Part shown: in pieces, positions 3,895-63,300 of the stretch | How the letters are laid out: each line of letters starts with the position of its first letter | How positions within the stretch are numbered: position 1 is the first letter of the stretch | NCBI GenBank assembly: GCA_010672965.1 | Contig: JAAHFN010000001.1 | Location: 206,118-270,117 of the forward strand | Length of the DNA: 64,000 nt | Direction of reading: 5' to 3' | From: Oscillatoria sp. SIO1A7 | GTDB lineage: Bacteria; Cyanobacteriota; Cyanobacteriia; Cyanobacteriales; Laspinemataceae | Notes under the pieces: model-generated | Databases searched by the model: none | What the model was told of the DNA's origin: nothing | What the model saw: the letters and a program-made list of their open reading frames with translations, nothing else | Made by a program: the position numbers and the translations under genes

Positions 3895-4920
3895 ATGGCT
3901 GGAAAGAAAACGCGACGGAATTTTTTGGCAGCTAGCGCCGCTATAGCCGGAGGGATTATCGGCAGTGCAGCGCTAAAGGACTCTGTGACCTCGGCAAGGA
4001 CGCCCAAAGCGGGAACTATGCCAGAGAGAATCTTGGGCAAAACCGGAGTATCGATTCCCATCCTGGGCTTGGGCGGTGCCGGATATCCCTTGGGCTCCCG
4101 AGGGGATAACAAAAATGAGGCCAAAGCATTGGCAATTATAGAACGGGCAGTAGAGCTTGGCATTCGCTATTTCGATACGGCATCTAGCTATGGACCCAAC
4201 GAAGTCTATTTGGCGGTCAGCCGTCAGCGGTCAGCAGTCAGCGGTCAGGCACAGAGCACAGAGCACAGAGCACAGAGCACAGAGCTTTCTTGGGCGTGAA
4301 AGCCGCACCGCATCGGTATGGCAAGACAACACTTTCTTTCGTGCTTGGACGTAAGAATTGGGGAATAGGGAATAGGGAATTGGGGATTCATAGCGGTCAG
4401 CCGTCAGCGGTCAGCAGTCAGCGGTCAGGCACAGAGCACAGAGCACAGAGCACAGAGCACAGAGCACAGAGCTTTCTTGGGCGTGAAAGCCGCACCGCAT
4501 CGGTATGGCAAGACAACACTTTCTTTCGTGCTTGGACGTAAGAATTGGGGAATAGGGAATTGGGCATTCATAGCGGTCAGCCGTCAGCGGTCAGCAGTCA
4601 GCGGTCAGGCACAGATCTGGGAGCTCTCAGCTCAGAGCTGAGAGCTTTCTTGGGCGTGAAAGCCGCACCGCATCGGTATGGCAAGACAACACTTTCTTTC
4701 GTGCTTGGACGTAAGAATTGGGGAATAGGGAATTGGGCATTCATAGCGGTCAGCCGTCAGCGGTCAGCAGTCAGCGGTCAGGCACAGATCTGGGAGCTCT
4801 CAGCTCAGAGCTCAGAGCTGAGAGCTGCGCGATCGCAATGTTGGAGTAGTAGCTATGAAAGTACCCGCCTACGGACGCTTATTTAAACCCGGAGTTCTCG
4901 ATGGAATGCACCAAGCATGG
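3895..4920 (+). pseudogene. Aldo/keto reductase gene interrupted by repeats
   Basis: The intact part (3895-4212) encodes a twin-arginine-type leader (KKTRRNFLAASAAIAGG) and the start of an aldo/keto reductase barrel: ERILGKTGVSIPILGLGG, then ELGIRYFDTASSYGPNEVYL with the catalytic Asp and Tyr. At the point where YLG is expected the frame enters an array of 180-bp repeats and stops at 4297-4299. A second piece of the same family is stranded inside the array at about 4828-4919: VGVVAMKVPAYGRLFKPG, which matches the conserved late beta-strand and loop of these enzymes. The middle (Lys/His active-site region) and the C-terminus are missing, so the gene is dead. The original enzyme would have been an exported NAD(P)H-dependent oxidoreductase. 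Confidence 0.85.
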
Positions 4921-5195
4921 CATTCATAGCGGTCAGCCGTCAGCGGTCAGCAGTCAGCGGTCAGGCACAGATCTCGGAGCACAGAGCTGAGAGCTGAGAG
5001 CTGAGAGCTTTCTTGGGCGTGAAAGCCGCACCGCATCGGTATGGCAAGACAACACTTTCTTTCGTGCTTGGACGTAAGAATTGGGGAATAGGGAATTGGG
5101 GATTCATAGCGGTCAGCCGTCAGCGGTCAGCAGTCAGCTAAAGGCACAGATCTCGGAGCACAGAGCTGAGAGCTGAGAGCTGAGAGCTTTCTTGG
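4213..5195. repeat. Array of about 180-bp repeats inside a broken gene
   Basis: Units begin GCGGTCAGCCGTCAGCGGTC at 4213, 4393, 4573, 4746, 4929 and 5109, giving periods of 180, 180, 173, 183 and 180 bp. Each unit has three parts: a GTCAGCGGTCAGCA block, a CACAGAG or AGAGCTG heptamer block of variable length, and a constant block (CTTGGGCGTGAAAGCCGCAC through TTCGTGCTTGGACGTAAG) ending in GGGAATAGGGAATTGGG. In the 4746 unit the constant block is replaced by the aldo/keto reductase fragment. The constant block could be a duplicated piece of the reductase gene, since one frame reads LGVKAAPHR, but this is uncertain. Confidence 0.85.
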
Positions 5196-5268
5196 GCGGG
5201 CATTGGGACAGGCGAGACGCTTGTCCTACAATATTATTTCACAAATTGAGGAGGTCATAAAAGAAGAA

Positions 5269-6042
5269 ATGAAGATTGATAGCTATAAAGGAACCGACAA
5301 TAAAAGCGATGCTTATACGGAGATAGTTCGCGACCTAATGCGGACAAAACAGACCGCTATTTTATTTTCTTGTTTCTCTCTAATGACCATAATGGCGATC
5401 GCGACAATTGCTTCATCTCGCGCCGCCAACCCCGACCCCTTGCAAAAGTTACTCGATACAAAAATATGCCCTGGATGTCAGTTAATCGGAGCTGACCTTA
5501 GTGCAGTGGATTTAAGCGGAGCGAACCTAGCAAATGCCGAACTCAGGGGAGCTTCCCTGACAGGTGCCGACCTCCGAGAAGCCAATCTCAGCGGTGCCAA
5601 TCTCAGCAGTGCCGACCTCAATAATGCCGACTTGCTTAGAGCCAACCTCAGCGGAGCAGACTTGAGCGGAGTAGATTTGGGCAATGCTTATTTGGCCGAT
5701 ACAGATTTCAGCGGAGCCAACCTCAGCGGCGCAGAAATACACCATGCGGACGCCCGTCAAGCCAACTTTAATCGCGCCAATCTCAGCGGTGCTAATCTCA
5801 ATCGAACTTTGCTAAATAGCGCCAATCTCAGCGATGCCAACCTCAATCGTGCCAGTCTCAGAGATGCCAGCCTAAATCGCGCCAATCTAGATCGAGCGAA
5901 TCTCGCAGATGCAAATCTCTGTGGCGCTTATCTCAGAAAAATTAGTCAGAACGAAGCGAACTTCAGCGGTGCAAATTTGAGAGATACTCACACCAGCCGA
6001 AGCGACCCCGAATGGTCAACTCCAGAAAAATGTACTGAGTGA
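5269..6042 (+). CDS. Membrane-anchored pentapeptide-repeat protein
   Basis: From the ATG at 5269 the product has 257 residues; a GAGGAGG ribosome binding site precedes it, and upstream in-frame sequence is repeat DNA. An N-terminal cytoplasmic stretch leads to one hydrophobic segment (residues about 30-50, AILFSCFSLMTIMAIATIA). A short linker with CPGC follows, then about 33 A(D/N)LxX pentapeptide repeats (residues about 73-245) that should fold as a right-handed quadrilateral beta-helix. The C-terminus is polar. Such proteins are abundant in cyanobacteria and most have no known function. The helix may face the periplasm or thylakoid lumen. The pentapeptide-like CPGCQLIGADLS start is common in this group. 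Confidence 0.88.
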   Translation: MKIDSYKGTDNKSDAYTEIVRDLMRTKQTAILFSCFSLMTIMAIATIASSRAANPDPLQKLLDTKICPGCQLIGADLSAVDLSGANLANAELRGASLTGADLREANLSGANLSSADLNNADLLRANLSGADLSGVDLGNAYLADTDFSGANLSGAEIHHADARQANFNRANLSGANLNRTLLNSANLSDANLNRASLRDASLNRANLDRANLADANLCGAYLRKISQNEANFSGANLRDTHTSRSDPEWSTPEKCTE

Positions 6043-19544: not shown

Positions 19545-19662
19545 CGGGGCAGGGGCGTTGGCAGCGGATTGGTAACAGATGTAGCAGATGTTGGCAGCGG
19601 ATAGGTAACGGATGTTGGCAGCGGATGTTGGCAGCGGATGTTGGCAGCGGATGTTGGTAGCG
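19545..19662. repeat. GCGGATGTTGGCA tandem repeats
   Basis: Degenerate GGTAACAGATGTAGCAGATG units pass into at least four 14-bp units of GCAGCGGATGTTGG (19616-19660). They are in the opposite sense to the adjacent 24-bp array, so the two could pair. Confidence 0.8.
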
Positions 19663-19663
19663 G

Positions 19664-19934
19664 ATGTTGCCTATCCGTTGCCACCATAAGCTACCTATCC
19701 GTTGCCACCATAAGCTACCTATCCGTTGCCACCATAAGCTACCTATCCGTTGCCACCATAAGCTACCTATCCGTTGCCACCATCAGCTACCTATCCGTTG
19801 CCACCATAAGCTACCTATCCGTTGCCACCATAAGCTACCTATCCGTTGCCACCATCAGCTACCTATCCGTTGCCACCATAAGCTACCTATCCGTTGCCAC
19901 CATAAGCTACCTATCCGTTGCCACCTATCCGTTG
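19664..19934. repeat. 24-bp tandem array
   Basis: Ten full units of a 24-bp repeat with core CCGTTGCCACCATAAGCTAC, plus a partial unit. Units five and eight carry CATCAGC in place of CATAAGC; the others appear identical. Because 24 is a multiple of three, the array is open in several frames but codes for nothing recognisable. The same motif in inverse form builds the array at 62660-63300. It is not a CRISPR, as there are no spacers. Confidence 0.9.
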
Positions 19935-45294: not shown

Positions 45295-45892
45295 TTTTTT
45301 GCAGCATAAAGTTTGATGTTAGCAATTTCGATATTAGAACCGCTGTTATACCAAGTCTAAATGATTTATGTACCCATATGGGAAAACCACCCGGTTGCCC
45401 CTACGAGTTTTTGCGCGAGCGATTTAGAGGCGCTATATTTATTATATCGTCAGTCTTAAATCGGTATTTGCTGCCATCAATCGGTCTGGCTGCTTATTAA
45501 GTTTTAAGTTTTGAGCTTGGAGTTTTAAGTTTTACCGTGGGTAAGTTTAATATAAATACGACTAATTACCATTACATAGGACTTACGCAAATTGTAGAGA
45601 TGCAAACCGAAATGTAGGAGCGATCGTGCGATCGCTCCTACCAGATATAGGGCTAATGCGTAAGTCAAAAGTTACAAGTCAAAAGTTACAAGTCAAAAGT
45701 CAAAAGTCAAAAGTTACAAGTCAAAAGTTACAAGTCAAAAGTCAAAAGTCAAAAGTCAAAAGTCAAAAGTTACAAGTCAAAAGTCAAAAGTCAAAAGTCA
45801 AAAGCAAAAAGTCAAAAGTTAAATCTCAAAGCTCAAAACTCTCAAGCTAAGAACTTAAAACTCTCAAGCTAAGAACTTAAAACTTAAAACTA
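45295..45892. repeat. Repeat-rich gap: family C element and AAGTCAAAAGT heptamers
   Basis: 45578-45666 is a family C element (AGGACTTACGCA to TGCGTAAGTC) with GTAGGAGCGATCGTGCGATC paired to its complement. 45663-45815 is an array of AAGTCAAAAGT and AAGTTACAAGT heptamers. 45835-45890 has ACTCTCAAGCTAAGAACTTA twice. The 5' part (45295-45570) is A+T-rich and holds the kinase promoter region. No gene is supported. Confidence 0.75.
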
Positions 45893-61123: not shown

Positions 61124-62730
61124 ATAAGGACTATAAAGTGCTAGAACTGCAAGCGCTCTCCGAGGCAGAACTGCCCAAGGTCTGCTATGACGCAGCGGGT
61201 CAGTTGGTGCTGCCACTATTTGAGGAAACTGCTAAAGAGCTGACCAATCCCGAGCCTGCCAGAAAATTAACCGTTCGAGAAAAAGCCCACTTGCGATCGG
61301 CATTTTACTGGTTAAACCTGTACGAACCGGAGCCAGACGCCTCCAACCTGGAACGAGTGCGGGGCTACCTGGAAGCGTTTCATCATCTCTGCGAGCTAGA
61401 GGAGTGGAAAAGAGCCAGCGACATACTTTTCAGCCGCCTTAACCCCAGTAATGAGGAATTGCACAAGCAACTAGAAATATGGGGTTTCTATCGAGAACAG
61501 TCTGAACTGTACCATCGAGTCTTGGGCAAAGTAAGTCGTAGTCGAGACGTGGTATTTCTGAGAGGCTTGGGCAATACTTGCTACTTTCGGTCACAGTATC
61601 CCCAGGCCATTGAGTATTATCAACAGAGCTTGGCTATTGCTCGGGAAATTGGCGATGGCTCTGGAGAATCAGGGGCTCTGGGCAATTTGGGCGTAGTCTA
61701 TTATTCCCTAGGAGAGTACCGCAGCGCCATTGAATATCATCAGCAGAATTTGGCTATTGCCCGGGAAATTGGCGCTCGCAGAGGAGAAGGAAATGCTCTG
61801 GGCAATATGGGCAATGCCTACTATTCCCTAGGAGAATACCGCCGCGCTATTGAATATCACCAACAGGATTTGGCTATTGCCCGGGATATCGGCAATCGCC
61901 AAGGAGAAGGAGCGGCTCTGGGCAGTCTGGGCAATGCCTACGATTCTCTAGGAGAGTACCGCCGCGCTATTGAATTCCACGAACAGCAGTTAGCTATTGC
62001 TCGGGAAATTGGCGATAGCCAAGGAGAAAGAGTAGCTCTGGGTAATCTGGGCAATGCTTACCATTCCCTAGGAAAGTATCGCAGCGCTATTGAATTCCAT
62101 CAGCAGGATTTGGCTATTGCTCGGGAAATTGGCGCTCGCCAAGGAGAAGGAGCGGCTCTGAACAATCTGGGCAATGCCTACGATTGCCTAGGAGAGTACC
62201 GCCGCGCCATTAAATGCCATCAGAAGCATTTGGCTATTGCTCGGGAAATTGGCGCTCGCCAAGGAGAAGGAAATGCTCTGGGCAATCTGGGCAATGCCTA
62301 CTATTCCCTAGGAGAATACCGCCGCGCCATTGAATTCCACGAACAGCAGTTAGCTATTGCCCGGGAAATTGGCGATCGCAAAGGAGAAGGAATAGCTCTG
62401 GGCAATTTGGGAGAGACTCTCCTCAAATTCGAGCGGTATTCAGAAGCTCTAGAAAACTTGCAGGCAGCTTTGGAGATTGCCAGAATAATTGCCGTTCCCG
62501 AGCTTGAGGCTGAAGTTATCAAAAACATGGCCAAACTCCATCAGCAGTTAGGGGATCTGGATTTGGCGCTGGAGTGTTGCGATGAGGCTTTAGGGATTGC
62601 TACGGAGTTAGGCATTCCCATAGCAAAGGAATGTCAGGAGTTGAAAGAGGAACTGCTGTCAGAGAAGGTTGGTGGCGGATGGTGGCAACGGATGGTAGCT
62701 GATGTAGCGGATGGTGGCAGCAGATGGTAG
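61120..62730 (+). CDS. TPR-repeat protein coupled to the STAND ATPase
   Basis: 536 residues from a GTG that overlaps the previous stop by four bases. Residues 1-150 are helical with no repeat (VLELQALSEAELPKVCYDAA, LRSAFYWLNLYEPEPDASNL). From about 150 to 430 there are seven to eight 40-residue TPR units of the kinesin-light-chain type (ALGNLGNAYYSLGEYRRAIE, FHEQQLAIAREIGDRQGEG). They are almost identical in DNA (120-bp repeats at 61620-62400), a sign of recent expansion. A last pair of degenerate TPRs (LENLQAALEIARIIAVPELE, LHQQLGDLDLALECCDEA) closes the fold. The last about 20 residues (VGGGWWQRMVADVADGG) are repeat-encoded from the array at 62660. It likely senses or binds a partner for the ATPase. 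Confidence 0.88.
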   Translation: MNKDYKVLELQALSEAELPKVCYDAAGQLVLPLFEETAKELTNPEPARKLTVREKAHLRSAFYWLNLYEPEPDASNLERVRGYLEAFHHLCELEEWKRASDILFSRLNPSNEELHKQLEIWGFYREQSELYHRVLGKVSRSRDVVFLRGLGNTCYFRSQYPQAIEYYQQSLAIAREIGDGSGESGALGNLGVVYYSLGEYRSAIEYHQQNLAIAREIGARRGEGNALGNMGNAYYSLGEYRRAIEYHQQDLAIARDIGNRQGEGAALGSLGNAYDSLGEYRRAIEFHEQQLAIAREIGDSQGERVALGNLGNAYHSLGKYRSAIEFHQQDLAIAREIGARQGEGAALNNLGNAYDCLGEYRRAIKCHQKHLAIAREIGARQGEGNALGNLGNAYYSLGEYRRAIEFHEQQLAIAREIGDRKGEGIALGNLGETLLKFERYSEALENLQAALEIARIIAVPELEAEVIKNMAKLHQQLGDLDLALECCDEALGIATELGIPIAKECQELKEELLSEKVGGGWWQRMVADVADGGSRW

Positions 62731-63300
62731 CGGATGGTGGCAGCGGATTGATAACGGATGTAGCGGATGGTGGCAGCGGATGTTGGCAGCGGATGTTGGC
62801 AGCGGATGTAGCGGATGGTGGCAACGGATGGTAGCGGATGGTGGCAACGGATTGGTAACTGATGTAGCGGATGGTGGCAACGGATTGGTAACTGATGTAG
62901 CGGATGGTGGCAGCGGATTGGTAGCGGATGGTGGCAACGGATTGGTAACTGATGTAGCGGATGGTGGCAACGGATTGGTAACTGATGTAGCGGATGGTGG
63001 CAGCGGATTGGTAGCGGATGTAACGGATGGTGGCAGCGGATTGATAACGGATGTAGCGGATGGTGGCAGCGGATGGTAGCTGATGTAGCGGATGGTGGCA
63101 GCGGATTGATAACGGATGTAGCGGATGGTGGCAGCGGATGGTAGCTGATGTAGCGGATGGTGGCAGCGGATGGTAGCTGATGTAGCGGATGGTGGCAACG
63201 GATGGTAGCTGATGTAGCGGATGGTGGCAACGGATGGTAGCTGATGTAGCTGCAACCATCCGCTACATCAGTTACTTATCAGTTGCCACCATCCGCTACA
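62660..63300. repeat. Tandem array of GCGGATGGTGGCA-type units
   Basis: Units of GTAGCGGATGGTGGCAACGG and GATTGGTAACTGATGTAGC (about 20-44 bp, mixed) fill 62660-63255, with an inverted tail to 63300. The 5' end lies inside the TPR gene. Units are close to the inverse of the 24-bp array at 19664. Because stops are rare in the repeat, the minus strand is open in three frames over about 600 bases; none is a gene. Confidence 0.9.

Follow-up and report, generated by a model that had tools for sequence, protein, structure and literature searches.

Tandem duplications in bacteria can arise by microhomology or slippage and then be amplified by RecA-type recombination. The locus described here has the direct-repeat units, the identical copies and the junctions at short shared motifs of such events. 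It departs from them in its unit, a gene tail joined to an element that is itself dispersed, and in the recurrence of such units behind several genes of one genome.

Closer in kind are the STRRs of filamentous cyanobacteria, usually 7-bp repeats, to which the available excerpt of one account ascribes no known function (PMC2670836). In Nostoc, intergenic heptamers of the GGGNATC type are reported, and the excerpted text cites polymerase slippage as their proposed cause (PMC4692102). Insertion sequences have been linked to pseudogenes in 'Nostoc azollae', as far as the excerpt goes (PMC4369082). The repeats at our locus, the remains of an aldo/keto reductase (AKR) gene, resemble STRRs in being seven-base tandem units that are intergenic and present in many copies. 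Unlike STRRs as described in the excerpts of PMC2670836 and PMC4692102, they combine several heptamer types into one composite element, here called E, and coding sequence has been drawn into a larger unit. The excerpted account of 'Nostoc azollae' (PMC4369082) is similar in that genes decay and suffer deletions under the influence of nearby repeats. In that organism the repeats are insertion sequences with transposases; here they are heptamer elements that are non-coding and show no sign of transposition. The coding pieces derive from a conserved cyanobacterial member of the AKR family (PF00248), but roughly half of the protein is gone. The locus is an extreme case of a known phenomenon, repeat instability. 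What heptamer repeats do in cyanobacteria, in function and in effect, has long been asked, and we found no description of co-duplication of gene tails with STRRs in the open-licence literature searched.

Structure of the AKR locus

The window, the whole stretch of 64,000 nucleotides that was analysed, belongs to contig C1; the cyanobacterial draft genome comprises 9.08 Mb in 182 contigs. The AKR gene head (3895–4212, forward strand, as are the parts of the array below) comprises codons 1–106 and is 51–63% identical to its homologues; later codons are numbered after the intact homologue L010 of 324 aa. Past 4212 the frame stays open into the array until a stop at 4299, and this ORF (3895–4299) matches the Pfam Aldo_ket_red profile (PF00248) with E 7.1e-8 and 32.3 bits against a cut-off of 24, which identifies the ancestral family; L010 itself scores E 3e-29. 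The head is presumably of the twin-arginine type, from its TRRNF motif. It ends in ...GPNEVYL, where most aligned homologues go on as YLGK, so the break at a conserved YLG position noticed in the original prediction is real.

The ancestral layout is well fixed, because exactly 218 residues follow YL in 59 of the 63 homologues that bear the searched motif, a count that includes duplicates, some genomes being present in two collections. These 63 belong to a set of 93 loci; the other 30, all without the motif, are a block of 17 non-cyanobacterial loci (L136–L152) and 13 cyanobacterial ones. No sister strain with an intact AKR gene or an intermediate was found in a search that may omit very near records, the closest homologue being 63% identical. 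At ~60% identity, even the nearest homologues are too distant for microhomology at the junctions to be read off directly.

The array extends from 4213 to 5197 and consists of six composite elements, E1–E6, with five spacers between them. The order through the locus is N-E-C-E-C-E-C-E-M-E-C-E, N being the gene head and C and M two other gene pieces. TRF reports 4213–5181 with period 173, 5.4 copies and a score of 1133. An array of 180-bp units had been expected: it is indeed a tandem array, with units of 173–183 bp that start at 4213, 4393, 4573, 4746, 4929 and 5109 (spacings 180, 180, 173, 183 and 180). Each element begins with GCGGTCAGC-type heptamers leading to GGCACAG, after which AGAGCAC/AGAGCTG-type heptamers run to TTTCTTGGGC. 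The six are 77.8–95.6% alike and vary in the number and type of their heptamers.

E1 (4213–4295) is joined to codon 106 and lacks the TTCATA start seen in other copies. The first C copy (4298–4354) holds the C-terminal 18 codons, ESRTASVWQDNTFFRAWT, with the stop codon of the AKR gene, from which GGGAATT-type heptamers (4355–4392) lead to E2 (4393–4482); equivalent stretches come after C copies 2–4. The second C copy (4485–4541), E3 (4573–4655) and the third C copy (4658–4714) are followed by E4 (4746–4826), which is shortened at GAGAGCT where the M piece starts. M (4828–4917) covers codons ~233–262, RDRNVGVVAMKVPAYGRLFKPGVLDGMHQA, and its start is GCGCGATCGC, an octamer also found inside some dispersed E copies. 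E5 (4929–5018), the fourth C copy (5021–5077) and the final element E6 (5109–5197) complete the array. Within the array, TAAAGGCACAG occurs in E6 alone, although dispersed copies commonly have it; E6 is followed by GGGCATTGGG and then by unrelated DNA, and a pentapeptide-repeat gene (5203–6042) lies directly past the array end.

All five spacers contain pieces of the same AKR gene, as found both by alignment and by tblastn with intact homologues (30 translated loci, L009–L038, among which the gene of the window itself was included). The C block shares 16 of 18 residues with the C-terminal end of homologue L016, and its four copies are mutually identical over 57 of 57 nt. This excludes the constant block as non-gene DNA and answers the question whether it is a duplicated gene piece: it is the 3' end of the AKR gene, stop codon included. 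The M piece is identical to L010 at 26 of 30 residues, and a search of the genome with L010 recovers it at 67% over codons 232–276 (E 2.3e-11). A later gene piece stranded at 4828–4919 had been predicted; it is there, ending at 4917, and intact relatives carry the segment in the same AKR gene rather than in another one. The idea that it had replaced a non-gene constant block fails, since every spacer carries AKR sequence. For the annotator, the warning is that the ‘constant block’ of such arrays may derive from the adjoining gene.

Codons ~107–232 and ~263–306 are absent, about 170 of the 324. The array does lie inside the gene with captured segments, as tblastn confirms, and the gene has suffered deletion rather than merely being pulled apart. 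No copy of the lost middle was found elsewhere in the draft assembly, where the other matches to L010 are paralogues of 32–38% identity. With these codons missing and a stop at 4299, there is no full-length uninterrupted PF00248 frame. The coding loss relative to intact orthologues and the lack of an intact copy in the genome indicate, as far as sequence can tell, that an AKR gene conserved in cyanobacteria has become a pseudogene here. With roughly half of the protein absent, the remodelled locus is predicted to be incapable of making the enzyme.

Several tail copies beside a truncated gene would also be seen if the array were a working variation system, storing segments in the manner of cassettes for recombination into an expressed copy. 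The tail copies are identical, however, and therefore hold no variation, the genome has no intact expressed copy and the array is full of stops and frame changes; such a system is highly improbable here.

The order and number of the units could be wrong in a draft of 182 contigs with N runs. That a short-read assembly simply misordered gene pieces and E copies is nevertheless unlikely. The number of contigs favours such an artefact, as do the 244 N in the 1.6 Mb fetched (N may also mark masking) and two tail hits of the survey described below that lie at N runs. Against it, the array contains no N, its units vary in heptamer number and element type, which a false join would not be expected to produce, and no copy of the lost middle turns up anywhere in the assembly, for which the genome record lists a completeness of 100% and a contamination of 0.32%.

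The composite element across the genome

With an array copy as query, E has 93 matches in its own genome, from a search with 716 first-look candidates of which 40 were shown as scored; with a dispersed copy as query there are 35. The copies are mostly intergenic. Among 39 related genomes tested, seven gave matches, which outside the host genome extend over only ~25–32 bases of heptamers. NNTCAGC arrays number 143 in 1.6 Mb, with eight wholly within ORFs of at least 120 aa. These dispersed intergenic copies, together with the period-7 rows reported by TRF in the array, place E with the STRRs. Placement relative to stop codons was mixed in the 19 elements inspected, and a strict 3' preference is not claimed.

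The dispersed copies have fairly constant ends, ...CATTCATAGC ... GAGCTTTCTTGGGC..., and could for that reason be taken for a small MITE-like mobile element inserted repeatedly, at three or more places in the gene, with the gene pieces as leftovers. We regard this as improbable. All six array elements contain, at their starts, a variant heptamer in the context AGCCGTCAGCGG, which occurs six times in the 2.4 Mb surveyed, every time in C1. The array elements are thus local copies of one another. Six independent insertions are rejected on the strength of this private variant; they would need later homogenisation. The junctions miss gene sequence, where an insertion would have duplicated it as a target site. 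E also recurs after every tail copy, as in a tandem duplication and unlike one insertion with a target-site repeat, which rules out a long target-site duplication as well. Neither a transposase nor inverted ends were seen in E; no terminal inverted repeats or target-site duplications are visible by eye in the printed copies.

Gene tails duplicated elsewhere and a proposed history

Simpler duplications of a gene tail occur behind other genes of this genome. The clearest is at chlH (CobN-Mg_chel, E 2.9e-216), where a 167-bp unit is present twice at 99% identity (L159:1906-2235, contig C79). The first unit holds the final ~110 gene bases, the stop codon and a shortened E; the second holds the gene end and a full E. 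This case came from inspection of ten regions picked for their element matches and was missed by the survey below. Smaller tail-plus-repeat duplications lie behind TP_methylase, Pyr_redox_2 and RlaP genes, behind a phosphoglycerate kinase gene (a short tail, 18 nt plus the next 52 nt) and behind an ORF at C172:80336 without a Pfam match. The intervening repeats are heptamers for TP_methylase and Pyr_redox_2 and other short repeats for the remaining three. These single tail-plus-element duplications represent a simpler stage than the AKR locus.

A bias towards gene tails was sought across 2.4 Mb, with its 1380 ORFs that reach 120 aa or more, by asking whether the last 18 bases are repeated within 1 kb downstream (tail) or the first 18 bases within 1 kb upstream (head). 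The raw counts, 20 tail against 16 head ORFs, show no clear or significant excess of tail duplications among the 1380. Once tips that were of low complexity, contained N or were dispersed had been taken out, 14 tail against 10 head remained, the AKR locus itself being one of the 14. When at least 30% heptamer repeats were required between the copies, there remained three tail, again including the AKR locus, against no head. An earlier exact survey of 907 ORFs in 1.6 Mb had given 19 tail and 22 head rows; the filters and the 30% threshold were set after it, so that the later counts are no independent test. Among the 14 clean tail hits, two fall on N runs (C13:108422 and C150:140429), some are internal to repetitive ORFs (C1:267237, C13:132423 and C98:129686), and several have no heptamer element between the copies, for example a WD40-repeat gene (C150:204152-207112) with ~70 tail bases duplicated right past its stop codon. 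A BLAST-based tail/head scan was noisy, as was a preliminary scan for local duplications, which filtered by complexity and thereby discarded even the AKR array. The 3'-end bias near heptamers is a hint and not a demonstration.

We think it likely that the locus is a pseudogene produced by STRR-driven duplication of the gene tail, amplification and then deletions from the gene into the element. A single E would first have stood just past the AKR stop codon, as is seen behind other genes. Replication slippage or microhomology-mediated template switching from E to the 3' end of the AKR gene could then have duplicated ‘gene tail + E’, the product seen once behind chlH and other genes. Unequal recombination or slippage may have multiplied these direct repeats into the four identical tail copies that are now present. 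Deletions join YL to E1 and MHQA to E5, with loss of the codons named above; they would have come after the amplification, an order that is itself conjectural. Finally, a longer tail, from codon ~233 onwards, may have been copied behind E4, possibly at a shared octamer, GCGATCGC.

The junctions bear on this scheme to different degrees. The octamer GCGATCGC occurs in the dispersed E copies L056 and L057, which makes the E4–M junction, falling on GCGCGATCGC, a plausible switch point. At the MHQA–E5 junction some homologues read GCATTGGGG, which resembles ATTGGGC, the heptamer at the entry to E. The YL–E1 junction has no clear shared motif, and the variation among homologues at YLG gives no basis for a specific microhomology there.

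The array had been thought to have grown inside the gene. That is where it lies now, and the tail-plus-element duplications behind other genes suggest a different beginning: more likely, it started at the 3' end of the AKR gene with the downstream E and consumed coding sequence from there. Gene decay driven by repeats is a sufficient account, and no further function need be invoked. It appears that short intergenic repeats pull gene ends into repeat growth, and one genome offers a testable series, from a repeat behind a gene through tail duplication and a tandem array to gene loss. A wider generalization can be offered only tentatively. In heptamer-rich cyanobacteria, intergenic repeats might repeatedly seed co-duplication of gene 3' ends, and such gene-tail/STRR units might be where longer minisatellite arrays usually originate and one way in which genes are regularly eroded. 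The AKR locus would then be a late stage of a process of which this genome also shows several earlier ones.

Other repeat arrays in the genome

Several further arrays were encountered in the same genome (G000). In contig C4, L251:1795-2160 is an array of 90-bp units with the same kind of composite element, in which no gene piece was noticed. Close by, an ORF at L251:2185-3501, which we take to resemble an rRNA methyltransferase of the Sun/RsmB type, contains a long in-frame translated heptamer stretch (RIGNRESGMGHWAWGIGNRETGG...). Macro-arrays with heptamer elements occur at L153:3095-4131 (C13) and L154:2881-3360 (C90), with 119-bp and 68-bp units, respectively; by look alone, both appear to be free of gene pieces. 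Within the window, units of GCGGATGGTGGC type and of 24 bp make up large tandem arrays at 62675–63250 and 19557–19925, some of them inside predicted ORFs, and an AAGTCAA heptamer array of 25 copies lies at 45662–45838.
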